Source of the DNA: Gammaproteobacteria bacterium
Lineage (GTDB): Bacteria; Pseudomonadota; Gammaproteobacteria; Eutrophobiales; Eutrophobiaceae
Length of the DNA stretch: 32,947 bases
NCBI GenBank assembly: GCA_021773245.1
Contig: JAJFKK010000084.1
Span: 1 to 32,947 of the forward strand
Direction of reading: 5' to 3'
The position numbers and the translations under genes were made by a program. A model generated the notes under the pieces. That model had not been told where the DNA came from. It did no database searches and saw nothing but the letters and a program-made list of their open reading frames with translations. Below are positions 4,953 to 29,587 of the stretch, one piece after another (the stretch's first letter is position 1; each line of letters starts with the position of its first letter).

Positions 4953-4988
4953 AAGTGACCACCTTACGGGGTGGTCACTTGCTGTTTT
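4953..4988 (+). terminator. Terminator after the TRAP permease
   Basis: AAGTGACCACC (4953-4963) and GGTGGTCACTT (4970-4980) form a perfect 11-bp stem with a 6-base loop, followed by GCTGTTTT. It begins 30 bases after the permease stop, so it closes the transporter operon. Confidence 0.78.
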
Positions 4989-5051
4989 GAAGAATTACGA
5001 GTTGCTGAACCGGCATGCAGGGGCTCGTTGAAACCAATAGGTGACCTACTC

Positions 5052-5606
5052 ATGACAACTTTCAAGACGGGTCAGTCGTCCCCGCCAGAAAACAAGACTT
5101 CGGGCCTGATGTTTACCGTAAGCGCGCCGCCTGAACATGCCACAGATGTAACGCAGGCAATTCACGATATCACCGCCAGTTTTATTGCGGTGGAGGGTGT
5201 GCCGGAAAATGATTTGCAGGAACAGGACCGGACCCGGGGTGAGTTTACGCTTTCCTTTAAATTCGATGACCAACTGGCATCGAACGACAAGGACCTGCCC
5301 GAGATGATCAACCGGGAAATCAAGCAGCGGCTGAACGGGTCCGCGGCAGAGATTCGTTGTGATACCGTGGCGGTTGCGCCACCTGCAGGAAGCCAGAAAG
5401 AGCCTGCTTTCTGGAAGCGTTGGGCGGTCAGTATGCTGGGTGTCTATCCCTTGCTGATCATGATCTTTTACGCCTTGAGGCCGGTGACGGAAGGCCTGCC
5501 CGTGCCGGTATCGCTGTTCCTGGTGGCGCTTGTTTTGACGGGTCTCAATGGCCGGTACGTGATGCCGTTCCTGGCGCGGAAAATGCAATTCTGGTTCGCC
5601 CGTTAG
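5052..5606 (+). CDS. Membrane protein resembling the C-terminal part of ABM-type (COG3224-like) proteins
   Basis: 184 aa when started at the ATG at 5052, which has AGGTGA seven bases upstream; a longer frame from 4971 would overlap the terminator. Residues 1 to about 110 are soluble and polar and could be a degenerate ferredoxin-like ABM (antibiotic biosynthesis monooxygenase) domain. I see no catalytic residues that prove this. The C-terminus has two membrane helices, around residues 123-143 (SMLGVYPLLIMIFYAL) and 150-172 (PVSLFLVALVLTGLNGRYVM), followed by a basic tail. Their spacing resembles the membrane end of COG3224-type proteins. It stands alone between a terminator and the oxygenase promoter. 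Its role is unknown, and the family link is a moderate guess. Confidence 0.5.
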   Translation: MTTFKTGQSSPPENKTSGLMFTVSAPPEHATDVTQAIHDITASFIAVEGVPENDLQEQDRTRGEFTLSFKFDDQLASNDKDLPEMINREIKQRLNGSAAEIRCDTVAVAPPAGSQKEPAFWKRWAVSMLGVYPLLIMIFYALRPVTEGLPVPVSLFLVALVLTGLNGRYVMPFLARKMQFWFAR

Positions 5607-5892: not shown

Positions 5893-7173
5893 ATGCTTAC
5901 ACCTGAAGAGAATGAACTGCTGACCCGCGTGACCGGGGATGCCCCGATGGCCAAGTTGATGCGTCAGCACTGGACACCCGTGTGCCTGATGGAAGAAGTC
6001 GAAGAACCCGACGGCAAGCCGCTTCGTGTTGAGGTTCTTGGTGAAAGTTACGTGGCGTTCCGCGATTCGAAGGGGCGTCTGGGTTTGCTGGATGAGCTTT
6101 GCCCGCACCGTAAGGCATCGCTGGTCTATGGCCGGAATGAGGAATGCGGCCTGCGCTGCCTTTATCACGGCTGGAAGATGGACGTTGACGGTAACGTCGT
6201 TGCCATGTCGTCCGAGCCCGAAGGCAGCCCCCTGATGGACAAGGTCAAGCACCGGTCCTACCCGGTGCGTGAGTGGGGCGGATTCGTCTGGGCTTGGCTT
6301 GGTGAAAAAGAAGACATGCCGGAGTTCCAGCCGCCCGCCTTCGCGCCGACCGAGGATACGCCGGTTGCGATCCTGAAGATTCGGGTGCCTGCCAACTGGG
6401 CACAGATCCACGAAGGTCAGATCGACAGCGCGCATTCGTCGTCGCTCCATTCCTCCACCATGGTTCCTGCCCGGGTGGAAGGGGCCGCGGCCGACGAAAA
6501 ATCGTGGTACCGTCCGTCGACCGACAAATCGCCCCGCATGCAGACCGAAACCACGAGTTACGGTTTCCACTACGCGGCGATTCGCAAGCCGATCAAGAAT
6601 GCGCAGACCCATAACTATTTGCGCATCACCGAATTCATCGCGCCTTATTATTCGCTGATTCCGCCCAACAACAATTACCGGGTGGCAAGCGTTATCGTGC
6701 CGATTAACGATGATGAAACGGCCTTCCACTTCCTTGCCTTCGGTGGTCCGAACGTTCCTTCGACCGAGGAATGGCGCAAGTTTACCTTTGCTGTGCCGGG
6801 GGAAGATCTGGATGACAAGTGGCGTCCGGTCCGGACGCTGGAGAACGACTTCCTGCAGGACCGCGAGAGAATGAAGGAAGGTCACTTCACTGGTGTGGAT
6901 GGCATCCCGAACGAAGATATCGTGATGTGGGTTTCGATGGGAAGCCGGGTTCAGCGTCACACTGACGTTCTCGGGGCCTCTGACCTGGCAATCGTCGAGT
7001 TCCGGCGGCTGATGGCCGATGCGGCCAAGAAGGTTGCAGAAGGCGGTCGGGCCATCGGCACCGATTCCGATATCCCGCAGGGCGTGATCGCCTCTCATGA
7101 GGGTGTTTATCCGAAAGAGACCGATTGGCGCACCCTCGTCGATACCTCGGGTAAAACCGCAGCGGCAGAATAA
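5893..7173 (+). CDS. pht3: Rieske ring-hydroxylating oxygenase, phthalate 4,5-dioxygenase type
   Basis: A 426-aa oxygenase component. The Rieske [2Fe-2S] ligands are visible as C70-x-H72 and C89-x2-H92 (CPHRKAS and CLYHGW). The mononuclear iron site is D178-x2-H181-x4-H186 in GQIDSAHSSSLHSS, the arrangement of the phthalate and 3-chlorobenzoate dioxygenase branch. Family knowledge says such enzymes take electrons directly from an FMN/[2Fe-2S] reductase, which is encoded at 8629. With the dehydrogenase and decarboxylase at 9557 and 10741, the expected reaction is o-phthalate to cis-4,5-dihydro-4,5-dihydroxyphthalate. Other aromatic carboxylates remain possible. It follows a GGAGGAG ribosome site and has its own operator-bearing promoter. 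Confidence 0.88.
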   Translation: MLTPEENELLTRVTGDAPMAKLMRQHWTPVCLMEEVEEPDGKPLRVEVLGESYVAFRDSKGRLGLLDELCPHRKASLVYGRNEECGLRCLYHGWKMDVDGNVVAMSSEPEGSPLMDKVKHRSYPVREWGGFVWAWLGEKEDMPEFQPPAFAPTEDTPVAILKIRVPANWAQIHEGQIDSAHSSSLHSSTMVPARVEGAAADEKSWYRPSTDKSPRMQTETTSYGFHYAAIRKPIKNAQTHNYLRITEFIAPYYSLIPPNNNYRVASVIVPINDDETAFHFLAFGGPNVPSTEEWRKFTFAVPGEDLDDKWRPVRTLENDFLQDRERMKEGHFTGVDGIPNEDIVMWVSMGSRVQRHTDVLGASDLAIVEFRRLMADAAKKVAEGGRAIGTDSDIPQGVIASHEGVYPKETDWRTLVDTSGKTAAAE

Positions 7174-7237: not shown

Positions 7238-7343
7238 GTAGGTGTCAGCCTGCCTGACACGGGGGGATGGCTGTTTGCCGCTTGTGGAAAACGCCCTGTC
7301 CCTGACGGGGGCAGAGGCGTATCGCAGGACACCGACGAGCAAG

Positions 7344-8507
7344 ATGACCCGAACCGTTAACATCGACGACTTGCGCCGCCGGGCCCGGCGGCGGCTGCCG
7401 CGCGTCGTGTTCGATTTTCTTGATGGAGGGGCGGAAGACGAAGTGACCCTTCGCAGAAACCGCCAAGCTTACGAGGATATCCGGCTCACGCCCAGAATCC
7501 TGAAAGGTGGCACGGTTGATCTTTCAATCGACCTGTTCGGCCAGAAGTTCGCATCGCCTTTCATGATCGGCCCGACGGGTTTGAACGGGATTTACTGGCC
7601 GAAAGGCGATTTGCATCTGGCCGGTGCTGCCGAAGATGCAGGCATCGGTTTTGCCGTTTCGACGGCCTCCAACTCTTCAATGGAAGAGATCGCACAACGG
7701 TCGGGCGGGCCACTTTGGTTCCAGCTTTACCCATGGGGGAAGGAGGCCTTTTCCCGGGCGCTGATCGACCGCGCCTCCGAGGCTGGCTATTCGGCATTGA
7801 TCATTACGGTCGATTCGCTGGTCGGGGGGAAGCGCGAGCGGGATTTGCGGCACGGGTTCGCGCATGAGATCACCATGAGTGCGCCCATCGTTCTTGATGG
7901 GTTGATGCACCCCGGATGGCTGAAATCCGTCTGGCTCAGCAATAACAGGCCACGATTGCAAAACCTCGTGGCTTTCCTTGGGGAGAGAGCCAGCGACAAG
8001 GAACTGGCAGATTTCACCCGCTCTCAGCGCAATCCGCATTTTTCCTGGGAGGATGTCCGGCGCATCCGCAAGCAGTGGAACGGGCCGCTTCTGATCAAGG
8101 GAATCATGTGTGCCGAGGACGCCCTGCGCGCCCGGCAGGAAGGGGCCGATGGTGTCATCGTGTCGAACCACGGAGGCCGGCAACTCGACGGTGCGCCGGC
8201 GACTATCGATGTGATCGGGGATATCGCCGGGCAACTGGACAAGGACGCGAAAATCCTGCTGGACGGCGGAATCCGCCGGGGTAGCGATACCGTCAAGGCG
8301 CTGGCCTTGGGGGCGCATGGCGTTCTGCTTGGCCGGGCACCACTTTACGGCCTGGCGGCGCATGGCCGCGAGGGTGTTGCGCAAGCGCTTTCGATTCTGG
8401 AGGATGAATTGCGCAGAACGATGATTTTCGTCGGCTGCCAATCGGTACGGGACCTGGGCGCGCAGCATATCGCAGCAATGAAAACAGGGGTGGCGGGCCC
8501 CGGCTAA
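7344..8507 (+). CDS. FMN-dependent alpha-hydroxy-acid dehydrogenase/oxidase (lactate/mandelate dehydrogenase family)
   Basis: 387 aa from the ATG at 7344; in-frame upstream codons would run back to 7242 but have no ribosome site and overlap the end of the terminator region. The (beta/alpha)8 FMN family is recognised by VVFDFLDGGAEDEVTLRRNR near residues 21-40, the FMN-contacting lysine K252 (LLIKGI), and the active-site motif SNHGGRQLDG with H276 and R279. The usual N-terminal active-site tyrosine position looks like phenylalanine (FDFLDGG), as far as alignment by eye allows. It oxidises a 2-hydroxy acid to the 2-oxo acid. No gene of the phthalate route needs this step. It may instead pair with the ThDP decarboxylase-like enzyme at 26582 in a mandelate-like branch. 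The substrate cannot be told from sequence. Confidence 0.85.
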   Translation: MTRTVNIDDLRRRARRRLPRVVFDFLDGGAEDEVTLRRNRQAYEDIRLTPRILKGGTVDLSIDLFGQKFASPFMIGPTGLNGIYWPKGDLHLAGAAEDAGIGFAVSTASNSSMEEIAQRSGGPLWFQLYPWGKEAFSRALIDRASEAGYSALIITVDSLVGGKRERDLRHGFAHEITMSAPIVLDGLMHPGWLKSVWLSNNRPRLQNLVAFLGERASDKELADFTRSQRNPHFSWEDVRRIRKQWNGPLLIKGIMCAEDALRARQEGADGVIVSNHGGRQLDGAPATIDVIGDIAGQLDKDAKILLDGGIRRGSDTVKALALGAHGVLLGRAPLYGLAAHGREGVAQALSILEDELRRTMIFVGCQSVRDLGAQHIAAMKTGVAGPG

Positions 8508-8628: not shown

Positions 8629-9567
8629 ATGGAGCAGATCAGAATGCGCGTCGAAAACAGGCGCGATTTGACTCCGAGTATCGTAGAATTCACTTTGGCG
8701 CCGGTCGGCGACGACAAACTGCCAAGTTTCGATCCCGGTGCGCATGTCACTGTCGAAACGCCTTCGGGCGCGATGCGCCGCTACTCGCTTGTCAATGACG
8801 GCGAGGACCCCAAGGAATATGTCGTGGCCATCAAGCGTGAGCCGGAATCGCGAGGCGGGTCCGCGTCGATGCATGATGATGCGACTGTCGGGACCGAACT
8901 TACAATCGAGGTGCCCGAGAACGATTTCCCGCTGACCGATGTGCAGAAATACCTGCTGATCGCCGGTGGCATCGGTATCACGCCGATCTATTCGATGGCG
9001 CGGTTCCTCGATAAGAAAGGCAAGATGCTGCGGATCATCTACGTGAGCCGCAGTGCAGAAGAGTCGGCCTATCTGGATGAGCTGATGAAGGATTTCGACG
9101 GGCGTATCATCGTCCACCATGACAATGGTGATCCGAATGCTGTTTATGACTTCTGGGACGATCTGGTGACGCCGCGGGCAACGCATGTCTTTTGCTGTGG
9201 CCCCAAGCCCTTGATGGAAGAGATCAAGGCCGTGTCCGGACACTGGCCGGAAGGACGCATTCACTTCGAGGATTTCAAACCCGTCGATGTGGTGCGCGAA
9301 GACGATACGGCCTTTGAAGTGGAACTGAAGAAAAGCGGTGAGGTGGTGACGGTTCCGGAGGATCGCTCGATTCTCGAAGCGCTGCGAGATGCGGGCCATG
9401 CCACGTCAAGCTCGTGTGAGAGCGGCACTTGCGGCACCTGCAAGACCCGCCTGTTGAGCGGTGAGGCCGATCATCGCGACATGGTTCTGATGGAAGAGGA
9501 AAAGGGCGATCACATCATGATCTGTGTGTCGCGGGCCAAGTCGGGGAGGCTTGTTCTTGACCTCTGA
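8629..9567 (+). CDS. pht2: Phthalate dioxygenase reductase-type flavo-iron-sulfur protein
   Basis: A 312-aa protein with the three-part class IA reductase order. The FMN domain shows RRYSLVND around residues 50-57. The NAD(H) domain shows AGGIGITPIYSMARF (112-126) and FCCGPKPLME (188-197). A C-terminal plant-type [2Fe-2S] domain carries ligands C263, C268, C271 and C299 (SSCESGTCGTCKT and IMICV). This FMN-NAD-ferredoxin order is that of phthalate dioxygenase reductase and VanB. It should pass electrons from NADH to the oxygenase at 5893, although the two genes lie in separate transcripts. GGGAGG precedes the ATG. Its 3' end overlaps the start of the next gene, indicating translational coupling. 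Confidence 0.9.
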   Translation: MEQIRMRVENRRDLTPSIVEFTLAPVGDDKLPSFDPGAHVTVETPSGAMRRYSLVNDGEDPKEYVVAIKREPESRGGSASMHDDATVGTELTIEVPENDFPLTDVQKYLLIAGGIGITPIYSMARFLDKKGKMLRIIYVSRSAEESAYLDELMKDFDGRIIVHHDNGDPNAVYDFWDDLVTPRATHVFCCGPKPLMEEIKAVSGHWPEGRIHFEDFKPVDVVREDDTAFEVELKKSGEVVTVPEDRSILEALRDAGHATSSSCESGTCGTCKTRLLSGEADHRDMVLMEEEKGDHIMICVSRAKSGRLVLDL

Positions 9568-10744: not shown

Positions 10745-11733
10745 GCAATCTAAATCTATCACTTGCAATGGGAAACTACGACCGGACACGGGCAATCGTG
10801 GATGGACGGGTACAGATCGACGGGGTCGATCCCATTCCGATGCTGTTGTCGCCGGAAGAAATGTTCTTCCGGGCTTTCCGGCATCAAGCCTTTGATATCA
10901 GCGAGCTTTCGCTGTCGTCCTATTCGATCTCGGTTGCCCGCGGTGATCCGCATTATGTGGCCATCCCGGTTTTCCTGAGCCGTGCGTTCCGGCACACGTC
11001 GGTTTATATCCGCACGGACAAGGGCATTGAGAAGCCCGAGGATCTGAAGGGCAAGCGCATCGGTATCGCCGAGTATCAGCTTTCCGCCAATGTCTGGGTG
11101 CGCGGTATTCTGGAAGAGGAATACGGCGTGAAATCTTCGGATATCGTCTGGGTGCGGGGCGGTATGGATACACCGGGCCGGCCGGAGAAGATCAAGGTTC
11201 AGTTGCCGGACGACATCACGATGGAAGAGGCCCCCGAAGGCAGCACCCTGAACGGGATGCTGGCAGCCGGTGAGATCGACGGCTTTGTCGGTCCGCGCTG
11301 GCCGCGTTGCTTCGCCGAGGGGCACCCGCATGTCGGGCGGCTGTTTTCCGACAGCATCTCTGCCGCGGAGGATTATTTCGAGCGGACCAAGATTTTCCCG
11401 ATCATGCATGTTCTGGGTGTCCGCCGAAGCCTTGCCGAGGAATATCCTTTCCTGCCCGCTGCGTTGCTCAAGGCGTTTACTCAGTCAAAGCGGCTGGCCG
11501 AAGAGGCGCTGTCAGACACGTCGGCCACCAAGGTCACGATGCCGTTTGTCGAGGATACCCTCAACCGGGTTCACACCCTGATGGGGGATGACCCGTGGAG
11601 TTACGGGGTTGGCGCGAACGCCCATGTGCTGGACAAGTTCCTTGATTACCACGCGAGCCAGGGCCTTTCGCCGCGCCGTGTCGGAATCGAGGAATTATTC
11701 CACCCATCGACTTTGGAAGCCTACAGCCTTTAA
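10741..11733 (+). CDS. pht5: 4,5-dihydroxyphthalate decarboxylase
   Basis: 330 aa, the normal length for Pht5/OphC. The fold is that of a periplasmic-binding-protein-like enzyme without a signal peptide. Typical segments are LSLAMGNYDRTRAIVDGRV at the N-terminus, PEEMFFRAFRHQAFDISELS near residues 40-59, and GMLAAGEIDGFVGPRWP near residue 165. It removes one carboxylate of 4,5-dihydroxyphthalate to give protocatechuate, the entry substrate of the pca genes in this window. The ATG overlaps the previous stop (ATGA), and GGGAGGGG lies just upstream, so it is coupled to the dehydrogenase gene. The family also includes ABC receptor relatives, but the context favours the enzyme. Confidence 0.87.
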   Translation: MSNLNLSLAMGNYDRTRAIVDGRVQIDGVDPIPMLLSPEEMFFRAFRHQAFDISELSLSSYSISVARGDPHYVAIPVFLSRAFRHTSVYIRTDKGIEKPEDLKGKRIGIAEYQLSANVWVRGILEEEYGVKSSDIVWVRGGMDTPGRPEKIKVQLPDDITMEEAPEGSTLNGMLAAGEIDGFVGPRWPRCFAEGHPHVGRLFSDSISAAEDYFERTKIFPIMHVLGVRRSLAEEYPFLPAALLKAFTQSKRLAEEALSDTSATKVTMPFVEDTLNRVHTLMGDDPWSYGVGANAHVLDKFLDYHASQGLSPRRVGIEELFHPSTLEAYSL

Positions 11734-11746
11734 CAGGAGTGTTAAA

Positions 11747-12190
11747 ATGGAAGAGTATCAGCCCGGCGATATTGTCGAGGTCGAAACGCCCAAGGGGCTG
11801 GCCTATGTTCAGTTGACGCATACCCACCCGAGCTATCCGCCGGTGGTCAAATTTCTCTCGGGTCCGTACAAAAGCCGACCCGAGAATGTCACTGTCCTGG
11901 CAACCGAAGAGTCCCCCATGGCGATGGTTCCGCTATCGGGCGTTCTGAAGAAACTCGGGTTGAAGCATTCCCGTGTCGAGAATGTCGAAATCCCGCGTGG
12001 GGAACGGAAATTCCCGACATTCAGAATGCCTATTCGGGGAAAGAAAGGCGAAATCATCTATTGGTGGTTCTGGGATGGGCAAGGCCTGACCTTCTCGACC
12101 GAACTCATGGAGACGCAAGAAAAGCTGCCGATGCGCGAGGTCATGTCCTCTGACCGCTTCCTTGAGCAGCTTGTTGCTGATGCCAGGTAG
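11747..12190 (+). CDS. Conserved protein of unknown function in the phthalate operon
   Basis: 147 aa from the ATG at 11747, preceded by AGGAGTG. No signal peptide or membrane helix is visible. The N-terminus YQPGDIVEVETPKGLAYVQL looks like a small beta-barrel fold. The C-terminus has an aromatic cluster IIYWWFWDGQG near residues 104-114 and ends in a helical tail. I recognise the general pattern (PGDIVE...KGLAY...H) as a conserved hypothetical family but know no function for it. It lies 13 bases after the decarboxylase, inside the same operon. A role as an accessory or sensing protein for the pathway is only a guess from context. Confidence 0.75.
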   Translation: MEEYQPGDIVEVETPKGLAYVQLTHTHPSYPPVVKFLSGPYKSRPENVTVLATEESPMAMVPLSGVLKKLGLKHSRVENVEIPRGERKFPTFRMPIRGKKGEIIYWWFWDGQGLTFSTELMETQEKLPMREVMSSDRFLEQLVADAR

Positions 12191-13165: not shown

Positions 13166-13600
13166 TCAGGAGGAGAGATTCCCGATCAGTTTGTCCATCG
13201 CGGCAAAAAGCTGCAAAAGCTCATCTTCTTCGAAGCCCCTTGACGCACGATCAGCCGCAGTGCGCGCCGCTTTCATGGCCTGGTCAATCTTTTTCCGGCC
13301 TTGATCGGAGAGGCTGACAACGACCACGCGCCTGTCTTCGCGGTTACGTTCACGCAGGATCAGCTGCCGCTGCTCAAGCTCGTCCAGAACGCGCGTGGAA
13401 GAAGCCTTTTCAATACCGAGAATCGCTGAAAGCTCGGATTGGCTGAGCGCGCCTTCCTCCCGCAGGCTTCTGAGGTGGATGTACTGCGCCATGCTCAGAT
13501 CAGAATCGATCAGCTGTTTCTGCAACAGCTTGCCATAGAGATGGTGGGACAGACGAAGCGATGCTCCGAGACCGCGTTTGCGGGAAGGGGAGTGATTCAA
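13166..13600 (-). CDS. MarR-family regulator divergent from the Rieske ferredoxin operon
   Basis: 144 aa starting at TTG 13600; no ATG or GTG is available near the N-terminus, and the ribosome site is weak. The helix-turn-helix is at about residues 50-80 (LSQSELSAILGIEKASSTRV), followed by the wing ILRERNREDRRVVVVSLSD. It converges with the EamA gene with 15 bases between stops. It faces the ferredoxin gene across 122 bases that contain two overlapping divergent promoters and a perfect inverted repeat. That is the classic layout of an autoregulated MarR repressor of the neighbouring operon. The ligand is unknown. Confidence 0.88.
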   Translation of the reverse strand: MNHSPSRKRGLGASLRLSHHLYGKLLQKQLIDSDLSMAQYIHLRSLREEGALSQSELSAILGIEKASSTRVLDELEQRQLILRERNREDRRVVVVSLSDQGRKKIDQAMKAARTAADRASRGFEEDELLQLFAAMDKLIGNLSS

Positions 13601-13639: not shown

Positions 13640-13680
13640 TTGACAATTCTAGAGCATATCTTATAGTAAGACAATCTTAC
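13640..13680. promoter_or_regulatory. Overlapping divergent promoters sharing one MarR-type operator
   Basis: On the plus strand TTGACA (13640-13645), a 16-base spacer and TATAGT (13662-13667) drive the ferredoxin operon. On the minus strand TTGTCT (complement of 13669-13674), a 17-base spacer and TAGAAT (complement of 13646-13651) drive the MarR gene. The perfect inverted repeat GTAAGA-CAA-TCTTAC (13666-13680) covers the end of the plus -10 and the minus -35, so one bound dimer would shut both. The box differs from TTAG-N4-CTAA, implying a separate regulatory circuit. Confidence 0.75.
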
Positions 13681-13722
13681 CAATTGGTATGACCAAGCCA
13701 GGCAATAAACGGAGGAGCTTTT

Positions 13723-14088
13723 ATGCCGGAAAAACTATTATGTGCTTCGTCCGACCTCAGCGATACGACCGTGAAAATCTGCGAGGTCGACGGAGTTGAG
13801 ATCGGCATTATACGTCACAACGGGGATGTCGTCGCATACAAGAACGTATGCCCTCACCAGGGCGGACCAGTTTGCGAAGGCCTGAGGATGCCCCGGGTTT
13901 GTGTCGAATTCGACGACCAGCAGCGCGCGCTCCAACAGAACTTCGACGAAAGCGAGATGCACTTCGTGTGCCCCTGGCACGGCTGGGAATTCAAAATGGA
14001 AACCGGAGAAGCCGTGGGCGATCCGAAAATTCGCCTCAAGCGATACAAGGTGACCGAACGGGATGGAGAGGTCTATGTCGAAATTTGA
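13723..14088 (+). CDS. Rieske-type ferredoxin
   Basis: A 121-aa soluble protein with one Rieske [2Fe-2S] site: C43-x-H45 (NVCPHQGGPVCEG) and C83-x2-H86 (FVCPWHGWEF). The 37 residues between the two ligand pairs are about twenty more than in classical BphF-type ferredoxins; the extra part is acidic (VEFDDQQRALQQNFDESEMH). GGAGGAG precedes the ATG. The phthalate-type oxygenase at 5893 does not need a separate ferredoxin, so this one probably serves another oxygenase or is part of an uncharacterised reaction with the two genes that follow. It overlaps the next gene by 14 bases. Confidence 0.85.
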   Translation: MPEKLLCASSDLSDTTVKICEVDGVEIGIIRHNGDVVAYKNVCPHQGGPVCEGLRMPRVCVEFDDQQRALQQNFDESEMHFVCPWHGWEFKMETGEAVGDPKIRLKRYKVTERDGEVYVEI

Positions 14089-14374
14089 GAAAATGACTGC
14101 TGAAGCCACCGGGTTGGACGCATCGGTTAACGCCGTTTTGCAAGCCCTGCGCGAGCCGGAAACCAGCGGGTTGAACCCGGCACAATTCCAGGCGGTGTTC
14201 GCCGAGGTTGTGACCGCGTTTGCCAAGTATCGGGAAAGCGACAAGGAGTTCCCTGCCTTTCCAGACAACAACAACGTTTCAGCGACGGATGTTGCAGTTG
14301 CCGCAACCGGGATTCTCGATGCTGCCGATGTGGCGGTATTCGAACTCGGTATGTGGCAGACGCTGAAACAATAA
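14075..14374 (+). CDS. Small protein of unknown function between ferredoxin and amidohydrolase
   Basis: 99 aa from the ATG at 14075 (an ATG at 14063 would add four residues); GGAGAGG lies close upstream, inside the ferredoxin gene. The protein is acidic and predicted mostly helical, without membrane segments or cysteines. Recognisable pieces are LDASVNAVLQALREPETSG near the N-terminus and VAVAATGILDAADVAVFELG near the C-terminus. I do not recognise the family. The overlap with the ferredoxin gene and the 21-base gap to the amidohydrolase gene show a three-gene operon, which suggests a subunit or assembly partner of one of them. Confidence 0.7.
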   Translation: MSKFEKMTAEATGLDASVNAVLQALREPETSGLNPAQFQAVFAEVVTAFAKYRESDKEFPAFPDNNNVSATDVAVAATGILDAADVAVFELGMWQTLKQ

Positions 14375-14395
14375 CGATCAAGGGAGCGAGATAAT

Positions 14396-15634
14396 ATGTC
14401 TCTTACTGGGAATACGATGAACTTCAGCACGGATAATGATCCGGCGATCAAGGAGTTCAATACCACCAAACTTCTGAAAAACGCGCGCAAACAGGCAGAA
14501 GACCGGAACTACAAGGATTTCTTCATTTGCGACGTGGACAGCCACCACTATGAAACCGAGGCCCTGCCCGAAATCCTGCAGTACATGGATGACCCGGTCA
14601 TGCGGCATCTCGGTCTGTCGGCGGGGAACGTGGGGCGTGCCGGCCTGATCCCGCAGGCAATCGGCTCTCAGGACATGGCCGGGCGCGTGACGCGCTATGC
14701 CGGTCGTAACAAGGAAGTGGTCCCCGAGAAACCGCATCGCGACATCACGCTGACCCGGCGCTGGATGGACGCGATGGGGGTCGACATGGCCTGCCTTTTC
14801 CCGACCCCGATGCTGCTGCTTGCAACCCATCCGCAAGTCGAGGTCGAGGTGGCGATGGCGCGGGCTTATAACCGCTGGCTGTGCGAACGTATCCTGGAAG
14901 AAGACAAGCGCATCGTGTCGATGGTCTATCTTCCGATGAACGAACCGCATGAAGCGGAAAAGATGATTGACGAGTTCGCCGAGAAAAAAGGCGTCGTCGG
15001 CTTCCTGTCGACGGGCTACCTCAAGCGACCGGTGCATGACAGTGTGAACATGCGCATCTATGCCAAGCTGGAAGAACACGGTATGCCGCTTGGTTTCCAC
15101 GCGGCCTATCACTGGGCAGATACGTCCCTGGCGCAGCTGAACAAGTTCATTTCGGTTCATGCCCTCGGGTTCAGCTTCTGTAACATCATCCACATGACGA
15201 ACTGGGTTCTGAACGGTATGCCCGAGCGGTTCCCGAAGCTGAACACCATGTGGATCGAAAGCGGCCTTGCCTGGGTTCCGTTCCTGATGCAGCGTTTGGA
15301 CAATGAATACATGATGCGCACCTCGGACGCGCCGCTTCTCAAGAAGAAGCCGAGCGATTACATGCGCGAGATGTTCTATTCTTCTCAGCCGATCGAACTG
15401 GTGGACAACAAGGAAGCCCTGGAAGTCACGTTCAAGATGATGAACGCGGAGTCGCAATTGCTGTACTCGTCCGACTATCCGCACTGGGATATGGACCTGC
15501 CCAGCACGATCCACGACATTCCGTTCCTTGATGAAACGGCAAAACGGAACATTCTCGGTGGGAACGCGCAAAAGCTGTTCAACCTCGATCCGGTAATGTC
15601 CGAGTGGAAGCTTGAAGCCCGCAAGCAGGGCTGA
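14396..15634 (+). CDS. Amidohydrolase-superfamily enzyme (amidohydrolase_2 / decarboxylase-like)
   Basis: A 412-aa TIM-barrel metal enzyme. The first metal motif is D46-x-D48-x-H50-H51 (FICDVDSHHYE). Later candidates are H235 (GFHAAYHW), H266 (NIIHMTNW) and D360 (YSSDYPHWD), the order expected for the amidohydrolase_2 family. That family contains non-oxidative aromatic decarboxylases (ACMSD, gamma-resorcylate, 5-carboxyvanillate) and hydrolases. GGGAGCG precedes the ATG by seven bases. It ends the operon that starts with the Rieske ferredoxin and is controlled by the divergent MarR. A second aromatic-acid decarboxylation or ring-opening hydrolysis is plausible; the exact reaction cannot be assigned. 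Confidence 0.8.
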   Translation: MSLTGNTMNFSTDNDPAIKEFNTTKLLKNARKQAEDRNYKDFFICDVDSHHYETEALPEILQYMDDPVMRHLGLSAGNVGRAGLIPQAIGSQDMAGRVTRYAGRNKEVVPEKPHRDITLTRRWMDAMGVDMACLFPTPMLLLATHPQVEVEVAMARAYNRWLCERILEEDKRIVSMVYLPMNEPHEAEKMIDEFAEKKGVVGFLSTGYLKRPVHDSVNMRIYAKLEEHGMPLGFHAAYHWADTSLAQLNKFISVHALGFSFCNIIHMTNWVLNGMPERFPKLNTMWIESGLAWVPFLMQRLDNEYMMRTSDAPLLKKKPSDYMREMFYSSQPIELVDNKEALEVTFKMMNAESQLLYSSDYPHWDMDLPSTIHDIPFLDETAKRNILGGNAQKLFNLDPVMSEWKLEARKQG

Positions 15635-15870: not shown

Positions 15871-15911
15871 TCTGGTAATCGGATTTGGAAAGATCGAACT
15901 GCGAGGCGAAA

Positions 15912-16736
15912 ATGAGTATAAAAAACATCCTGCTTGCACATTCCGGCAGTTCTGGTTTTCCCAACAGTTTGCGGCATGCGGCAAGAATTGCCGCAACCCA
16001 CGAGGCATGGTTGACCGGAGTTTATGGCAGTTCGACCTCGTACTTCGAACAAGTGCTGGGGCTGACCGAAGAATTGCTTGAAAAGCTCGGGCACGTGAGA
16101 CGTGAGAAAATCGCGGCATCGCGGGAATTGTTCATGGAAGTGACGGCGGCTGCGGGTCTTGGTGATCGCGCCCGTTTCCTGATGCCCGATGAGATCGGAA
16201 AGCTCAGCATTACACAGGTCGCCCGCAACTTCGATTTTATCGTAACGGGCTATCAGCCCAAGTTGCCGTCAGACGAATTTCGCGCCGTAAGCCCGGACCT
16301 GATGGCACTTGAAAGCGGTCGCCCGGTCCTGGTTGTGCCCGATGAATACGAAGCCGATAAACCTGCGGCCCATGCTCTTGTCGCGTGGGATGGCAAGCGT
16401 TCGGCGGCCCGGGCCCTCAACGACGCCATGTATATTCTGGAGGAAAAGCCGCGCAAGGTCTCTATCGTGACCGTCGGTGGCGGCCTGCCTGACATGCCGG
16501 AAGGGAACGATATCCTGACGCATCTGGAGCGCCATGGAGTTCACGCCAAACACATAGAGCGGGCGAGATCCGGGAAAAGCATCGCCAGTACCATTCAGGA
16601 AACAGCCGCGGAACTGGATGCCAAGCTGATTATCATGGGTGCCTATGAACACAGCAAGTTTTCACAGGACCTTTTCGGCGGCGTGACCCACGAGGTGATC
16701 CGGTCGACGAAGGTGCCGGTATTCATGTCGCACTAA
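15912..16736 (+). CDS. Two-domain universal stress protein (UspA family)
   Basis: 274 aa from the ATG at 15912, preceded by GAGGCGA; a longer frame to 15885 lacks a ribosome site. Two Usp folds are present. The first begins at residue 2 (SIKNILLAHSGSSGFPNSLR). The second begins near residue 155 (ALVAWDGKRSAARALNDAMY) and carries the C-terminal GAYEHSKFSQDLFGGVTHEV pattern with VPVFMSH at the end. Only this second half shows the nucleotide-binding-like GAYxHS/GGVT signature. Its promoter carries the same box as the catabolic operons, so it probably belongs to the regulon and helps cells cope with aromatic-acid stress. Confidence 0.85.
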   Translation: MSIKNILLAHSGSSGFPNSLRHAARIAATHEAWLTGVYGSSTSYFEQVLGLTEELLEKLGHVRREKIAASRELFMEVTAAAGLGDRARFLMPDEIGKLSITQVARNFDFIVTGYQPKLPSDEFRAVSPDLMALESGRPVLVVPDEYEADKPAAHALVAWDGKRSAARALNDAMYILEEKPRKVSIVTVGGGLPDMPEGNDILTHLERHGVHAKHIERARSGKSIASTIQETAAELDAKLIIMGAYEHSKFSQDLFGGVTHEVIRSTKVPVFMSH

Positions 16737-17884: not shown

Positions 17885-17903
17885 TTGAATGACTTGTTTC
17901 GGC

Positions 17904-18509
17904 TCAAATATCGAGGAAAACCGTTTCGCCCTCGCCCTGAAGGCGGATATCGAAGCGATATTTCCCCTCGCCGGTTTTCTTGGCGATAAGCGTGTCCACG
18001 CGCGGGCGCTGTTCGACCCGGTTCAGAAGCGGATCGTTTTCATTGTCTTCATCCTCGAAATAGATCCGGGTATTGAGACCGATGTTGATTCCGCGGGACA
18101 CCACCCAAAGCGAGATATGCGGCGCGCTGTCTACCCCGCCACGGCCCTTGTAGGGGCCGGGCTTCACGGTGCGCAGCGTGAATTCACCGGTTTCCGCATC
18201 GGCGGCAAAGCGGCAATGGCCGGTAACGGCCGGATCGGCGCCCTCGGCCCCCGGGAAGATGCCGCTTGCGTCGCATTGCCAGCTTTCGATCAGGGCATCG
18301 CGCATCGCCCAGCCGGTGCCATCGTACACGGAGCCAACGATCTCGATGATCTCGCCTTGTGCCTTGCTTTCGTCGATGAAGGGGGTGGTGCCGATCTCTT
18401 CGTCGTAATACCCGGCATTCCCGGCGTAGGTTGGCATCAATCCGATGTGGACATAAGGACCCGCTGTTTGCGACGGGCTTTCTTGCAGAGTGTCGAGTTT
18501 CTGGACCAT
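17904..18509 (-). CDS. pcaG: Protocatechuate 3,4-dioxygenase alpha subunit
   Basis: A 201-aa intradiol dioxygenase subunit. The family segment SQTAGPYVHIGLMP is at residues 13-26, GTGWAMRDALIESWQCDASG lies near residues 64-83, and a C-terminal KYRFDIRLQGEGETVFLDI closes the beta-sandwich. As known for PcaG, it lacks the metal-ligand set of the beta subunit and builds the active site together with PcaH. The complex cleaves protocatechuate between the hydroxyls to 3-carboxy-cis,cis-muconate. The start is two bases after the pcaH stop, so equimolar coupled translation is expected. Confidence 0.95.
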   Translation of the reverse strand: MVQKLDTLQESPSQTAGPYVHIGLMPTYAGNAGYYDEEIGTTPFIDESKAQGEIIEIVGSVYDGTGWAMRDALIESWQCDASGIFPGAEGADPAVTGHCRFAADAETGEFTLRTVKPGPYKGRGGVDSAPHISLWVVSRGINIGLNTRIYFEDEDNENDPLLNRVEQRPRVDTLIAKKTGEGKYRFDIRLQGEGETVFLDI

Positions 18510-18511
18510 GA

Positions 18512-19255
18512 TTACATACCCTCCAGCTTGTTCTCGAACATGGTCTGGCGGCGCCCGCGCAGAACGATGTCGAATTTATAGGCAAGGAAATCGAGCGGGC
18601 GCGACTTCGAGAAATCGAGTGGCGCGACCAGGCGGTCGAGCTGGCTGCGCTCCTTGATCGTCGCGGCGATCGGGCAATGGTTGATCAGCGGGTCACCCTC
18701 GAAATACATCTGGGTGATCAGGCGCTGACCGAAGCTGTGGCCATAGACGGACACATGGATATGCATGGGCCGCCAGTCATTGCCGCGGTTGGGCCAGGGA
18801 TAAGCGCCGGGGCGCACGGTCAGGAATTCGTAATACCCGTTCTCGTCGGTGATGGTCCGCCCGCAGCCGCCGAAATTCGGATCGAGCGGTGCGAAATAGG
18901 TATCCTTCTTGTGACGGTAACGACCGCCCGCGTTGGCCTGCCAGATCTCGATCAGCGTATTGGGGACGGGGCGGCCCATCTCGTCCAGAACCCGCCCGTG
19001 CATCAGGATGCGCTCCCCCACGGCTGGGGCCTTGCCCTTGGTCCAGTTCAGGATCAGGTTGTTGTCGAGCGCGCCGAGCTTCCCATGCCCGAAGGTCGGG
19101 CCGGTCTCTTCCGAAGGGGTGCTTTCCATCGACAGAAGCGGCAGGTTCGGCGAGCGTGCAACGCTGGTCTTGTACCCCGGATTGTAGGGGTCGGGATGGA
19201 TCGCGCGGTTTCGGGGGATCAGCGGTCCCTGATCCACGTTCAATCGGTCAGTCAT
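18512..19255 (-). CDS. pcaH: Protocatechuate 3,4-dioxygenase beta subunit
   Basis: 247 aa from the ATG at 19255, which has a GGAGG site upstream on the minus strand; a longer frame reaching 19279 is not needed. The Fe(III) ligands of intradiol dioxygenases are visible as Y113 (GGRYRHKKD), Y152 (PGAYPWPN), H165 and H167 (RPMHIHVSVYG). N-terminal segments such as RNRAIHPDPYNPGYKTS are typical of PcaH. The start codon overlaps the end of pcaC by eight bases. Together with PcaG it forms the ring-cleaving enzyme of the beta-ketoadipate pathway. Confidence 0.96.
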   Translation of the reverse strand: MTDRLNVDQGPLIPRNRAIHPDPYNPGYKTSVARSPNLPLLSMESTPSEETGPTFGHGKLGALDNNLILNWTKGKAPAVGERILMHGRVLDEMGRPVPNTLIEIWQANAGGRYRHKKDTYFAPLDPNFGGCGRTITDENGYYEFLTVRPGAYPWPNRGNDWRPMHIHVSVYGHSFGQRLITQMYFEGDPLINHCPIAATIKERSQLDRLVAPLDFSKSRPLDFLAYKFDIVLRGRRQTMFENKLEGM

Positions 19256-19634
19256 TTTCACGTTCCTCCATTTCCGCAAAGGTCTGTTTGGCGAGTTTCA
19301 GGGCGTGGTTCGCCTTCGGTACCCCCGCATATATCGCCACATGCTGCAGGGCCTCCGCGATGTCGTCTTTCGACGCACCCGTGCGCAGCGTGGCGCGGAT
19401 GTGCATCGGGATTTCTTCGAAGTTTCCCGTCGCCGCCAGAAGCGCAATGGTCAGCATCGACCGTTCCCGGCGCGAAATCTTATCCGAGGACCATACCGTG
19501 CCCCAGGCGCTCTCGGTGATGAGCGATTGAAAGGGCAGGTCGAATTCGGTTTTTGCCGCCTCGGCGCGGTCCACGTGGGCATCGCCCAGAACCTCGCGCC
19601 GGGTCTTCATGCCCTGATCGAATTTTTGGCTCAT
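19248..19634 (-). CDS. pcaC: 4-carboxymuconolactone decarboxylase
   Basis: 128 aa from the ATG at 19634, a normal length for stand-alone PcaC. It is an all-helical CMD-family protein with SRRERSMLTIALLAATGNFE at residues 54-73 and the conserved EALQHVAIYAGVPKANHAL at 94-112. It decarboxylates 4-carboxymuconolactone to the beta-ketoadipate enol-lactone used by PcaD. The ATG overlaps the pcaD stop (ATGA), and the stop overlaps pcaH, so the operon is tightly coupled. PcaC and PcaD are not fused here, unlike in some actinobacteria. Confidence 0.95.
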   Translation of the reverse strand: MSQKFDQGMKTRREVLGDAHVDRAEAAKTEFDLPFQSLITESAWGTVWSSDKISRRERSMLTIALLAATGNFEEIPMHIRATLRTGASKDDIAEALQHVAIYAGVPKANHALKLAKQTFAEMEEREND

Positions 19635-24883: not shown

Positions 24884-24912
24884 TTGACAATATTTAGAGG
24901 TCTAAGTTAACA
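24884..24912 (+). promoter_or_regulatory. Promoter with embedded operator before the aldehyde dehydrogenase gene
   Basis: TTGACA (24884-24889) begins right after the pcaR stop. TTAG-AGGT-CTAA (24894-24905) fills the spacer, and TTAACA (24907-24912) is a weak -10 at 17-base spacing. It is the fifth unit with this operator and ties the dehydrogenase to the transporter and oxygenase genes rather than to PcaR. Confidence 0.7.
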
Positions 24913-24939
24913 GGTGTCAACGTGGGGAGGAAACATCTG

Positions 24940-26418
24940 ATGGACATCTTGAAACTGGACGCGAACCTGACTCTTTCGAAAAAAGCAGACCTGTATTACG
25001 GAGGGGCATGGGTTCCACCCATCGAAGGACTTTACGAAGAAACCCTGAATCCGGGCACCGGGCAGCCGATCGGAACGGTTGCCACGGCGGGCCGCGCCGA
25101 CGTGGACGCCGCGGTTGCCGCGGCGGGGAAGGGTTTCGAGGAATGGCGCGATGTCGCGCCGCTGGAACGGGCCCGCATCCTCAAGGAAATCGCGGCGCTG
25201 TTGCGCAAACATGGCGATGAACTGGCGATGATGGATGCCGCGAACTGCGGCAATCCCTACACGGAAATGCGCGGTGATGCCGCGATTGCCGCAGCCCAGA
25301 TGGAATTTTTCGCGGGTCTCGTGACCGAAATGAAGGGTGACACGATCCCGATGGGGCCGGACCGCGTCAACATGACATTGCGCCAGCCGCTCGGCGTCGT
25401 TGCCCGGATTCTCGCCTTCAACCATCCTTTCATGTTCTGCGGCGGCAAGATGGCCGCGCCGCTGGCGGCGGGCAATGCCGTTATCATCAAACCCCCGGTG
25501 CAGGCGCCCCTTTCGGCCCTGCGTCTTGCCGAACTCGTCGATGGCCTGATGCCGAAAGGCACGTTCAGCGTTCTGCCCGGCGGGGTCGAAGCCGGTGCCG
25601 GGCTGGCCGAGCATCCCGACGTGGCCAAGGTGACGCTGATCGGGTCGGTTCCCGCCGGGCGCGCGGTGATGCGCAGTGCCAGCGACACGGTCAAGCCCGT
25701 CCTGCTGGAACTCGGTGGCAAGAACGCCCTGATCGCCTATCCCGACAGCGACCCGAAAAAGATTGCAGATGCGATTGTCGCCGGGATGAACTTCGGCTGG
25801 TGCGGACAGTCCTGCGGCTCGACAAGCCGGGCTTTCCTGCATCAGGATATTCACGATGAGGTGATCTCCCATCTGGCCGAGGCCGTCGCGCGGTATCAAC
25901 CCGGCGTGCCGACCGATCCGGAAACCACCATGGGGGCCATCGTCAGCCAGGCGCAGTTCGACCGCGTGATGAGCTTCATCGACTCCGCCAAGAGCGAAGG
26001 CGCACAGGCCGTTACGGGCGGGCATGCCGTGACCGATGGCGCCTTGGCCGATGGCTATTTCATCGCGCCGACGATCTTTGCCGACGTGACTCCGGAAATG
26101 CGGATTGCGCGGGAAGAGATCTTTGGCCCGGTGCTCGCCGTTCGCAAGTGGTCGGACGAAGACGAGATGCTGAGCGAGGTCAATGCGCTCGAACTTGGCC
26201 TGACCTGCGCGATATGGACCCGCGACCTTGTCACCGCGCACCGAACGGCGGCGAGTGTCGAGGCAGGGTTCGTCTGGGTCAACGAGGTCGGTCGCCATTT
26301 CCTCGGGGCGCCTTTCGGCGGGGTCAAGCAATCCGGTATCGGACGCGAGGAAGGCATCGGTGAACTGATTTCCTTCACCCACGAGAAGAACGTTCACATC
26401 AACCTCGCCGGGCAATAA
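24940..26418 (+). CDS. NAD(P)-dependent aldehyde dehydrogenase
   Basis: 492 aa from the ATG at 24940; GGGGAGG lies upstream, and a longer start at 24922 would bury that site. The catalytic residues of the family are present: N161 (AFNHPF), K184 (IIKPP), E257 (LELGGKN) and C292 (GQSCGSTSR). It oxidises an aldehyde to the acid. The strictly protocatechuate-based route needs no aldehyde step, so it points to a side branch. Benzaldehyde-type oxidation after a ThDP decarboxylase is one option; semialdehyde oxidation is another. It has its own promoter and regulon box and lies 163 bases before the ThDP enzyme gene. Confidence 0.9.
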   Translation: MDILKLDANLTLSKKADLYYGGAWVPPIEGLYEETLNPGTGQPIGTVATAGRADVDAAVAAAGKGFEEWRDVAPLERARILKEIAALLRKHGDELAMMDAANCGNPYTEMRGDAAIAAAQMEFFAGLVTEMKGDTIPMGPDRVNMTLRQPLGVVARILAFNHPFMFCGGKMAAPLAAGNAVIIKPPVQAPLSALRLAELVDGLMPKGTFSVLPGGVEAGAGLAEHPDVAKVTLIGSVPAGRAVMRSASDTVKPVLLELGGKNALIAYPDSDPKKIADAIVAGMNFGWCGQSCGSTSRAFLHQDIHDEVISHLAEAVARYQPGVPTDPETTMGAIVSQAQFDRVMSFIDSAKSEGAQAVTGGHAVTDGALADGYFIAPTIFADVTPEMRIAREEIFGPVLAVRKWSDEDEMLSEVNALELGLTCAIWTRDLVTAHRTAASVEAGFVWVNEVGRHFLGAPFGGVKQSGIGREEGIGELISFTHEKNVHINLAGQ

Positions 26419-26533: not shown

Positions 26534-26581
26534 GTGTGCAGGTGCGGCTGAATGAAAAGAAACAGAAAGTTGGATGGAAAC

Positions 26582-28351
26582 ATGACTGATCAAAAACCTT
26601 CACGCGTTGAGACGCCTGTGCCTTCGGCGGGTACTGGTGTATGGGGTAGTGATGTATTTGCGGATATGCTTCGTGGCTTGGGTGTTAAGTATGTTGCGCT
26701 GAACCCCGGGTCGAGTTTCCGGGGGTTGCATGACAGTCTTGTCAATCACCTTGGGAACGCGGATCCGCAGATGCTTTTGTGCCTGCACGAGGAGCATGCG
26801 GTGGCGATTGCGCATGGTTATGCGAAGGTGACGGGGGAGCCGCTTGCGGTGATCCTGCACAGCAACGTGGGCCTGATGCATGGCACGATGGCGATCTTCA
26901 ACGCCTGGTGCGACCGTGTGCCGGTGCTGATCTACGGGGCGACGGGGCCGGTGGATGCGGCGATGCGGCGGCCGTGGATCGACTGGCTGCACACCTGCCG
27001 GGACCAGGCCTCGATGATCCGCCATTATGTGAAGTGGGACGACCAGCCTGCCTCGATGGAGGCGGCGCTTGAGTCGATGCTGCGCGCGGATGTGATCGCG
27101 CGGAGCGAGCCGATGGGGCCCACTTATGTCAATTTCGACGTGTCGATCCAGGAGAAGCGGCACGAGGCGGCGCCGGCGCTGCCGGATTTCTCGCGCTACC
27201 AGCCGCCGCTGCCGGCCGAGCCTGCCGCCGAAGGGGTGGCACGAGCGGCAGAGCTGCTGAAGGGGGCGAAGGCCCCCGTGGTCCTGGCGGGGCGGGTATC
27301 GCGCGACCCGGCGGACTGGGCGCGGCGGGTGGCGCTGGTGGAGGCGCTGGGCGCGAGGGTCCTGACGGATATCCGGATCGGGGCGTCCTTCCCGACGGAC
27401 CATCCGCAGCATCGCGGCAAGCCGGCCTTCTTCATCGACGATGCGGCGGGCGAGGTGCTGCGCGAGGCGGACGTGATCCTGAGCCTCGACTGGCTGGACC
27501 TTGCCGGGACGCTGAAGCTGGCGGGCGAGGTGACGGCGAAGGTCATCCAGGCCTCGCAGGATTACCAGTTGCACAACGGCTGGGGCATGGAACACCAGGC
27601 CCTGCCGGCGCTCGACCTGCACCTGGCCTGCGCGCCGGACCGGGCGATGCATGCCATCGCGGATGCGCTGGAGGTGGGTGCGGGCGCGGCGCCGGAGGCC
27701 CTGCCGGTCAAGCCGGCGCTGGAGGCGCCCGCGCCGGAGACGCCGCTCGACATCATGACGCTGGCCGGGGCGCTCGGCGAGGGGCTGGACGGGGTCTGCG
27801 CCAGCATCGTGCGCCTGCCGCTGGGCTGGGCCGGGGAGGCCTGGCACTTCCGCCACCCGCTGGATTTCCTGGGCTCGGACGGCGGTGCCGGGATCGGCTC
27901 GGGTCCGGGGATGCTGATCGGCGCGGCGCTGGCGCTGAAGGACAGCGGGCGGATGCCGGTCGCGGTGCTGGGCGACGGGGACTTCATGATGGCGGCCTCG
28001 GCCTTCTGGACGGCGGCGCATTACGGCACGCCGTTCCTCGCGGTGGTGTCGAACAACCGCTCGTTCTACAATGACGAGGTCCACCAGGAGCGCGTCGCGG
28101 TGGCCCGCAACCGCCCGGTGGAGAACAAGTGGATCGGCCAGCGGATCGGCGACCCGGATATCGACATTGCCGGTGTCGCCCGGGCGCAGGGCTGCGAGGG
28201 GATCGGGCCGGTGGAGACCGCCGGCGAGCTTGTCGAGGCGGTGAAGAAAGGCCTGGAGATGGTGCGCGAGGGCAAGAGCGTGGTGATCGACGCGCGGGTC
28301 CGGCCGGGCTACAACCCCAACATGGTCGCCGGCCTGACGCGGAGCGACTGA
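26582..28351 (+). CDS. Thiamine-diphosphate-dependent enzyme, benzoylformate decarboxylase/acetolactate synthase-like
   Basis: 589 aa from the ATG at 26582 (an in-frame ATG at 26552 adds ten residues). The ThDP glutamate is E70 (CLHEEHAVAIAHGYAK). The cofactor motif GDG begins at about residue 464 and closes with NN at 491-492. Residues matching the active-site S26 and H70 of benzoylformate decarboxylase appear to be present as S44 (NPGSSF) and H93 (ILHSN), by eye alignment. Non-oxidative decarboxylation of a 2-oxo acid is therefore plausible. The first 200 bases are far less GC-rich than the rest. The next gene starts two bases after its stop, so the two act together. Confidence 0.82.
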   Translation: MTDQKPSRVETPVPSAGTGVWGSDVFADMLRGLGVKYVALNPGSSFRGLHDSLVNHLGNADPQMLLCLHEEHAVAIAHGYAKVTGEPLAVILHSNVGLMHGTMAIFNAWCDRVPVLIYGATGPVDAAMRRPWIDWLHTCRDQASMIRHYVKWDDQPASMEAALESMLRADVIARSEPMGPTYVNFDVSIQEKRHEAAPALPDFSRYQPPLPAEPAAEGVARAAELLKGAKAPVVLAGRVSRDPADWARRVALVEALGARVLTDIRIGASFPTDHPQHRGKPAFFIDDAAGEVLREADVILSLDWLDLAGTLKLAGEVTAKVIQASQDYQLHNGWGMEHQALPALDLHLACAPDRAMHAIADALEVGAGAAPEALPVKPALEAPAPETPLDIMTLAGALGEGLDGVCASIVRLPLGWAGEAWHFRHPLDFLGSDGGAGIGSGPGMLIGAALALKDSGRMPVAVLGDGDFMMAASAFWTAAHYGTPFLAVVSNNRSFYNDEVHQERVAVARNRPVENKWIGQRIGDPDIDIAGVARAQGCEGIGPVETAGELVEAVKKGLEMVREGKSVVIDARVRPGYNPNMVAGLTRSD

Positions 28352-28353
28352 GC

Positions 28354-29379
28354 ATGCCCAGGATCTACATAGCACAAGACCCGGTTCTGGACGAGGTTCT
28401 GGAGCGCGCCTCGGCGCGGCTGGAGGACCAGGGCTGGGAGGTGGTGCGCGGCCCGGCGATCACGCCGGGGGTGCCGCTGCGGCTGACGCCGGATCAGCGG
28501 CAGGCGCTGCTGGGGGATGTCGATATCATCGTGGCCAGCTCGCGCTCGCGGCTGGGCGAGGAGGATCTCGACGCCTCGCCGCGGCTGCGGGGGCTGGTGT
28601 TCCCGACGATCGGGGTCGATGCGGTCGATCTGGAGGCCTGCGCGGAGCGCGGGCTGATCGTGGCCAATGGCGCGACGCCCGAGAACTTCCTGGCGATGTC
28701 CGAGGCGACGGTGATGCTGATGCTGGTGCTGCTCTACCGGCTGCACCGGTCCGAGCGCCTTTTGCGTGAGAACGCGGGGCGCCCGCAGCAGATGTACGCG
28801 CGGATGCTGTGCGGGCGGCGCATCGGGCTGATCGGGTCGGGTCGGATCGGCGGCGGGGTGATCGACCGCCTGCAGGCCTTCGAGCCGGCGGAGATCCTGG
28901 TGCATGACCCGTTCCTGACGCCGCAGACCGCGCCGGAAGGCGTGCGGCTGGTGGCACGCGAGGAACTGCTGGCGCAGGCCGACGTGATCAGCCTGCACGT
29001 GCCGCTCAATGCCGGGACCCGGGGCCTGATCGGGGAGGCCGAACTGCGGGCGATGAAGCCGGATGCGATCCTGATCAACACCTCGCGCGGCGGGCTGATC
29101 GACGAGGCCGCGCTGGCGCGGGTGATGACCGAGGGGCACCTTGCGGGGGCGGGGCTGGATGTGACGGAAACCGAACCGATGCCCGCCGACCACCCGCTGC
29201 GCGAGATCGACCGGGTCGTCCTGACGCCGCATATCCTGGGCCACACGGTCGACCTCTACTCGGTCATGCCCGAGGTCCTCGTCGAAAACGCAACCCGCAT
29301 CATGCAAGGCAAACTCCCCAAATACACACGTAACCCGGAAATCCAGAAAACATGGCAAGACAAACTCAGAAAAACGTAA
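28354..29379 (+). CDS. D-2-hydroxyacid dehydrogenase (NAD-dependent)
   Basis: 341 aa from the ATG at 28354, two bases after the previous stop. The Rossmann motif is GLIGSGRIGGG near residues 158-168. The catalytic set is R245 (INTSRGGLID), E274 (TETEPMP) and H293 (TPHILGHT). It interconverts a 2-oxo acid and a D-2-hydroxy acid. Pairing with a ThDP enzyme suggests that both act on the same 2-oxo acid or its product; the substrate is unknown. The C-terminal NPEIQKTWQDKLRK fits the usual end of this family and lies in the 55-base repeat found again at 596-651. The gene is markedly GC-rich except at that end. Confidence 0.87.
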   Translation: MPRIYIAQDPVLDEVLERASARLEDQGWEVVRGPAITPGVPLRLTPDQRQALLGDVDIIVASSRSRLGEEDLDASPRLRGLVFPTIGVDAVDLEACAERGLIVANGATPENFLAMSEATVMLMLVLLYRLHRSERLLRENAGRPQQMYARMLCGRRIGLIGSGRIGGGVIDRLQAFEPAEILVHDPFLTPQTAPEGVRLVAREELLAQADVISLHVPLNAGTRGLIGEAELRAMKPDAILINTSRGGLIDEAALARVMTEGHLAGAGLDVTETEPMPADHPLREIDRVVLTPHILGHTVDLYSVMPEVLVENATRIMQGKLPKYTRNPEIQKTWQDKLRKT

Positions 29380-29557: not shown

Positions 29558-29587
29558 AGGGTTCACAGACATTTGCGGCAAATATCG

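Follow-up and report, generated by a model that had tools for sequence, protein, structure and literature searches.

A candidate three-component oxygenase of the ARO class, combining a Rieske ferredoxin, a PF04909 protein, and a putative dedicated helical subunit, in Alphaproteobacteria

Three tightly packed genes are best explained, with a probability that we place at roughly 75%, as a multicomponent member of the amidohydrolase-related dinuclear oxygenases (AROs), in which a Rieske protein would donate electrons, a protein of the PF04909 family would hold the dinuclear site, and a small helical protein would act as a dedicated third subunit. Within the whole stretch of DNA analyzed (32,947 nt of contig JAJFKK010000084.1, hereafter “the window”), they encode a 121-aa Rieske [2Fe-2S] ferredoxin (positions 13723–14088; Pfam Rieske, E-value 3e-16), a 99-aa all-helical protein characterized by alignment and AlphaFold2 modeling and referred to here as SML (14075–14374), and a 412-aa amidohydrolase-related protein (14396–15634; Pfam PF04909, E-value 1e-24), all on the forward strand. 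These frames and their tight packing, as proposed in an initial sequence-only reading of the window, were borne out. Because the first two overlap by 14 nt and the third follows after a gap of 21 nt, the trio is very probably one transcript. In a survey of 84 loci, 55 included the small-protein gene (trio loci) and 29 did not (dyad loci, i.e., ferredoxin and oxygenase only), after small-protein matches in two loci (L038 and L060) were dropped as frames overlapping the ferredoxin gene. A Rieske homologue adjoins the oxygenase gene in 79 loci, and the trio is kept together in dozens of alphaproteobacterial loci, hence its conservation is not restricted to the window.

Published work describes the AROs AibH2, SfbO, and PtmU3 as O2-activating dinuclear enzymes built on the PF04909 fold (PMC10811679, PMC10401708, PMC7782822), and in two of these papers the signature of the class is a small Rieske protein gene beside the PF04909 gene, with the Rieske protein treated as the reductant (PMC10811679, PMC10401708). 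The six metal ligands of AibH2 (D25, H27, H211, E265, D337, and H340; PMC7782822) align to D48, H50, H235, E288, D360, and H363 of the window’s PF04909 protein, and its second-shell D342 to D365 (D48 and H50 were mapped via the alignment to 8SM7; the one to AibH2 begins later). The six ligands and D365 were invariant in an alignment of 92 homologues, and a further sample retained all seven residues in 24 complete copies, 6 others being incomplete in the fetched stretch. The best PDB sequence matches of the protein were 8SM7, 8SM6, 8SM9, AibH2, and 8SM8. For its AlphaFold2 model (pTM 0.85), the top 11 VIA entries were all AROs, with Z-scores from 36.2 (SfbO and 8SM7) through 34.0 (AibH2) to 31.4 (PtmU3), 4dzi and LigW-type decarboxylases coming next with no more than 30.4, and a Foldseek search again returned AROs as the best matches. 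Identity to characterized AROs was 20–26% over the model alignment, and no AibH1-like second PF04909 homologue was found in the assembly or at 13.1–16.7 kb of the window. Judging from these ligands and the predicted fold, the PF04909 protein is almost certainly a terminal oxygenase of the ARO class rather than a hydrolase or decarboxylase. The sequence-only reading had stated that no terminal oxygenase was encoded with the ferredoxin; since the ligand set, fold, and pairing with a Rieske gene all match AROs, the missing enzyme would be the PF04909 protein itself. In addition, 4–8 kb upstream the window encodes a Rieske oxygenase of the phthalate type together with a reductase belonging to it.

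Most characterized PF04909 enzymes are mononuclear Zn or Mn decarboxylases and hydrolases, of the ACMSD or gamma-resorcylate decarboxylase type, and if the window’s protein were one of them the ferredoxin would be a bystander or would serve another client. Such enzymes come next in the structural ranking, with Z-scores up to 30.4, and UbiD, UbiX, and aromatic-acid genes occur near some trio loci. However, we consider this quite improbable given the full dinuclear ligand set and second-shell D365 across 92 sequences, the ranking of AROs above decarboxylases in both sequence and fold, and a near-universal linkage to the ferredoxin. It is very improbable that the three proteins form a redox-assisted decarboxylation or ring-opening complex, as originally suggested, in which the ferredoxin would act on the hydrolase reaction itself. 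The tight coupling of the three genes and the aromatic catabolism encoded nearby would fit such a complex, but the ligand set and fold point to O2-activating dinuclear oxygenases, and in the accessible parts of the literature we found oxygenase chemistry (PMC7782822, PMC10401708, PMC10811679) and no such chemistry for a PF04909–Rieske pair. An ARO may, alternatively, perform oxidative ring cleavage or oxidative decarboxylation.

Since its PF04909 neighbor has the ligands and fold of an ARO, the ferredoxin is best read as the electron donor to this putative oxygenase. Its two ligand pairs, C43-x-H45 and C83-x2-H86, are separated by 37 residues, compared with 16 in the window’s ring-hydroxylating oxygenase, so that the extra segment of about 20 residues noted initially is real (about residues 54–74; 13882–13944, forward strand). 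Of the 54 trio loci scored, 52 have a spacing of 37, and 25 dyad loci have 36–37. Three ARO-linked ferredoxins that are only distantly related (from Mesorhizobium pMLa, the archaeal Halalkalicoccus, and Rhizobium pRLG203) fall between 32 and 37. A spacing of 32–38, a criterion proposed in the present analysis, is thus common to every ARO-linked Rieske protein checked, archaeal ones included. The segment had been taken as a pointer to new chemistry; instead, it looks like a class-wide mark of ferredoxins serving AROs, and is possibly a recognition element.

The window also encodes a phthalate-type (LigXa-type) Rieske ring-hydroxylating oxygenase (5893–7173), 6.5 kb from the trio in a common cluster found in roseobacter and Stappiaceae loci, and the ferredoxin could conceivably serve this enzyme, with SML and the amidohydrolase-related protein acting otherwise. 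Yet this oxygenase occurs near only 14 of the 55 trio loci and has its own PDR/VanB-type reductase, and the ferredoxin gene overlaps that of SML and tracks the oxygenase-like gene into unrelated neighborhoods with the order shuffled. We rejected the partnership on these neighborhood grounds as very improbable, as the initial proposal requires.

The third protein had been described as an unknown small helical protein, and the description stands: the AlphaFold2 model of SML (pLDDT 81) contains four helices, and no Pfam or NCBIfam match, PDB sequence relative, or PDB fold match (Foldseek) was found. When 42 family members were compared to Pfam, only scattered chance-level matches were obtained, each in 1–3 of the 42. 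F89, L91, and W94 are invariant in the SML alignment, which has no conserved Cys or His, so that a docking subunit fits better than a cofactor carrier. Among 337 genomes evenly drawn from the class of Pseudolabrys (Alphaproteobacteria), SML was detected in 13, at 19 places, to which 9 copies found in four other genomes were added. Within the fetched stretches, 27 of these 28 places included the ferredoxin gene, 27 the ARO gene, and all 28 at least one of the two. The prevailing gene order was ferredoxin–SML–oxygenase (17 places), followed by oxygenase–ferredoxin–SML (4), oxygenase–ferredoxin–SML–oxygenase (3), and oxygenase–SML–ferredoxin (2), the last also being the order in Aminobacter; the oxygenase gene was never placed between the other two. 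This shuffling of gene orders among loci speaks for a functional role of the small protein with the ferredoxin and oxygenase, beyond an inherited arrangement. Because SML always stands beside ARO or ferredoxin genes, we infer that it is a dedicated adaptor or effector working with this pair.

Mapping the trio label onto the oxygenase tree takes at least 5 changes. Given the 29 loci, in close relatives, without its gene in the operon, the small protein may not be essential, and the dyad-operon genomes tested (3 of 3) carry it elsewhere. Two Rhodospirillales bins contain tandem ARO genes with all ligands intact, five in L042 (7992–14216) and four in L043 (7887–13011), and each array is accompanied by a single ferredoxin gene and a single small-protein gene. 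The main rival to an adaptor or effector role is one in metal loading, with SML as a metallochaperone or assembly factor for a Mn/Fe site and no subunit of the working enzyme. AROs need specific metalation, a delivery chaperone has been suggested, without data, for AibH1H2 (PMC10401708), and the SML gene is missing from some operons; the invariant residues, however, are F89, L91, and W94 rather than any Cys or His, and we regard metal loading as unlikely, if a serious contender.

Compared with known systems, the trio resembles the 2-aminoisobutyrate monooxygenase AibH1H2–AibG–AibF of Rhodococcus wratislaviensis in having a PF04909 dinuclear oxygenase with the same ligands and a neighboring Rieske ferredoxin, the Aib cluster also including a ferredoxin oxidoreductase, but AibH2 requires a second PF04909 subunit, AibH1, where the trio has an unrelated 99-aa helical protein (PMC7782822, PMC10401708). 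AibH2 is about 23% identical to the trio oxygenase, and the printed Aib gene table shows no protein of the size of SML between aibH1 and aibF. Closest to the trio oxygenase, by both sequence and fold, are SfbO and 8SM7, 8SM8, and 8SM9, Rieske-linked dinuclear PF04909 proteins with Z-scores of about 34–36 and 22–26% identity, for which the accessible main text of the paper mentions no small third protein (PMC10811679). The platensimycin beta-hydroxylase PtmU3 (6omp, Z-score 31.4), about 20% identical to the trio oxygenase, combines diiron chemistry with the ARO fold, and its substrate is a CoA-linked diterpenoid. Elsewhere, small extra proteins beside a dinuclear oxygenase are known as the effectors MmoB and T4moD, and T4MO also uses a Rieske ferredoxin. 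Any likeness of SML to these effectors would be an analogy of function; no sequence or fold match was found (Pfam, PDB sequences, Foldseek), and multicomponent monooxygenases are built on a four-helix bundle whereas the trio oxygenase is a predicted TIM barrel.

In the mechanism we propose, this TIM-barrel ARO, with an Fe2 or Mn/Fe site, would receive electrons one by one, from NAD(P)H through a PDR/VanB-type reductase and the Rieske ferredoxin, and O2 activated at the dinuclear site would hydroxylate a C–H bond of a small carboxylic acid. SML would dock by its C-terminal FELxxWQ helix, most likely at the ferredoxin–oxygenase interface, and thereby link the supply of electrons to substrate and O2. 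The candidate electron source in the window is a PDR/VanB-type ferredoxin reductase identified by NCBIfam matches (8629–9567, forward strand), which could serve both oxygenases. Outside the phthalate cluster, the trio loci of the 84-locus survey had no reductase gene as a regular neighbor, and on plasmid pRLG203 of R. leguminosarum a reductase of this family (by annotation) directly follows the Rieske–ARO genes. A flavoprotein encoded after the Aminobacter trio was ruled out as a ferredoxin reductase, being of the FAD aromatic hydroxylase type.

A MarR-family regulator is encoded divergently from the trio (13166–13600, reverse strand; Pfam MarR, E-value 2e-15), and MarR genes of one cluster were found near 15 trio loci vs 0 dyad loci. 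Between the regulator and the ferredoxin gene lies a sigma70-type promoter-like sequence, TTGACA-16-TATAGT (13640–13667, forward strand; 11 of 12 matches), whose core is also present upstream of the ferredoxin gene in roseobacter and Stappiaceae relatives. Its -10 box is overlaid by the palindrome TAGTAAGAcaaTCTTACCA (13664–13682), which matched once in the window and in 0 of 100 shuffles, and close relatives keep it as TAGTAAGnCAATCTTACTA. Upstream of several distant trios, TAAG...CTTA palindromes occur at similar places. This palindrome is a probable MarR operator, at which the divergent regulator would act as a repressor. Control of the trio independently of the phthalate genes, as suggested initially, is supported by its own MarR gene, promoter-like sequence, and single-copy palindrome, and is plausible. 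Downstream of the trio, a universal stress protein gene is found both in the window (15885–16736) and in the Phaeobacter locus (L085, 20930–21754).

Mandelate catabolism follows the logic of hydroxylation, formation of a 2-oxo acid, TPP-dependent decarboxylation, and aldehyde oxidation. In the window, possible subsequent steps are represented by an FMN-dependent 2-hydroxyacid dehydrogenase of the LldD/mandelate dehydrogenase type (7242–8507; Pfam FMN_dh, E-value 7e-133) and a benzoylformate-decarboxylase-like TPP-dependent decarboxylase (26552–28351), both on the forward strand. An NAD-dependent 2-hydroxyacid dehydrogenase is also encoded on this strand (28129–29379, true start probably near 28351; Pfam 2-Hacid_dh_C, E-value 2e-52), and in Phaeobacter pP75_b a gene of this type comes after that of the TPP enzyme. 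The FMN enzyme is encoded near 17 of 55 trio vs 0 of 29 dyad loci, ALDH near 15 vs 0, TPP decarboxylase homologues near 11 vs 1, UbiX near 8 vs 0, and UbiD near 11 vs 2, counts that are inflated, as most of the 17 FMN-enzyme loci represent one shared roseobacter/Stappiaceae cluster. Many trio loci have none of these catabolic neighbors. As the neighboring enzymes follow the mandelate logic, the trio may be an aryl-acetate alpha-hydroxylase forming a mandelate-type acid, a tentative conjecture with the odds somewhat against it. In the window, the substrate is perhaps, again by conjecture, homophthalate, with phthalate as a product of the pathway. Odds are longer still for the full proposal that SML is the first dedicated ARO effector or adaptor, independent of the MmoB type, and that the trio alpha-hydroxylates aryl-acetates, converting homophthalate to 2-carboxymandelate. 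The literature searched contained no gene for this conversion, nor was the trio described in work on homophthalate, 4-hydroxymandelate formation, aromatic catabolism by Rieske and amidohydrolase proteins, or roseobacter phthalate clusters.

The catabolic cluster of the window also holds a Gfo/Idh dehydrogenase, a TRAP transporter, pca genes, and an otherwise unclassified 330-aa protein, whose relatives are annotated as ABC substrate-binding proteins and which we take to be probably 4,5-dihydroxyphthalate-decarboxylase-like. Five of its frames gave no Pfam or NCBIfam match (4971–5606, 11588–12190, 17889–18581, 18677–19519, and 24907–26415), and the first two are matched in position in Phaeobacter by genes annotated “hypothetical protein.” Marine roseobacters and Stappiaceae have kept the block of phthalate genes and trio, several of them on plasmids (including Phaeobacter pP75_b and Thioclava pLX02, loci L085 and L086), some of which are predicted to be conjugative. 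Transposition genes (Mu-type, TniB, and TniQ) lie close to the Phaeobacter plasmid block.

The contig itself has a GC content of 60% vs 34–40% elsewhere in the assembly, and 17,236 nt of it are identical to Marinibacterium profundimaris 22II1-22F33. No oxygenase homologue was found in genomes of the same order as the assembly, and a search of 369 genomes from the class of the assembly gave no SML homologue. The assembly yielded no 16S gene. Based on the GC contrast, the identity to M. profundimaris, and the absence of these genes from the relatives of the assembly, the contig is most likely misbinned into a low-GC bin, probably as a Marinibacterium contaminant, and its foreign origin would in turn explain that absence. 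An IS481-family transposase is encoded at 29573–31222. From 29440, and outside the part that is otherwise syntenic, the window is 88–89% identical in two surveyed loci (L010 and L011). Misbinning has no bearing on the biology of the trio, which is present in cultured alphaproteobacteria.

While the ARO class is known, neither a subgroup whose members have a third protein of their own nor a ferredoxin insert common to the class was found described in the accessible main-text literature. AROs were recognized only recently, and substrates are known for few of them. The present analysis points to a sizeable subgroup in Alphaproteobacteria with a putative dedicated third component, whose recurring catabolic neighborhood suggests substrates that can be tested, and a Rieske ferredoxin with 32–38 residues between its ligand pairs could serve as a marker to screen “amidohydrolase” annotations for hidden oxygenases.
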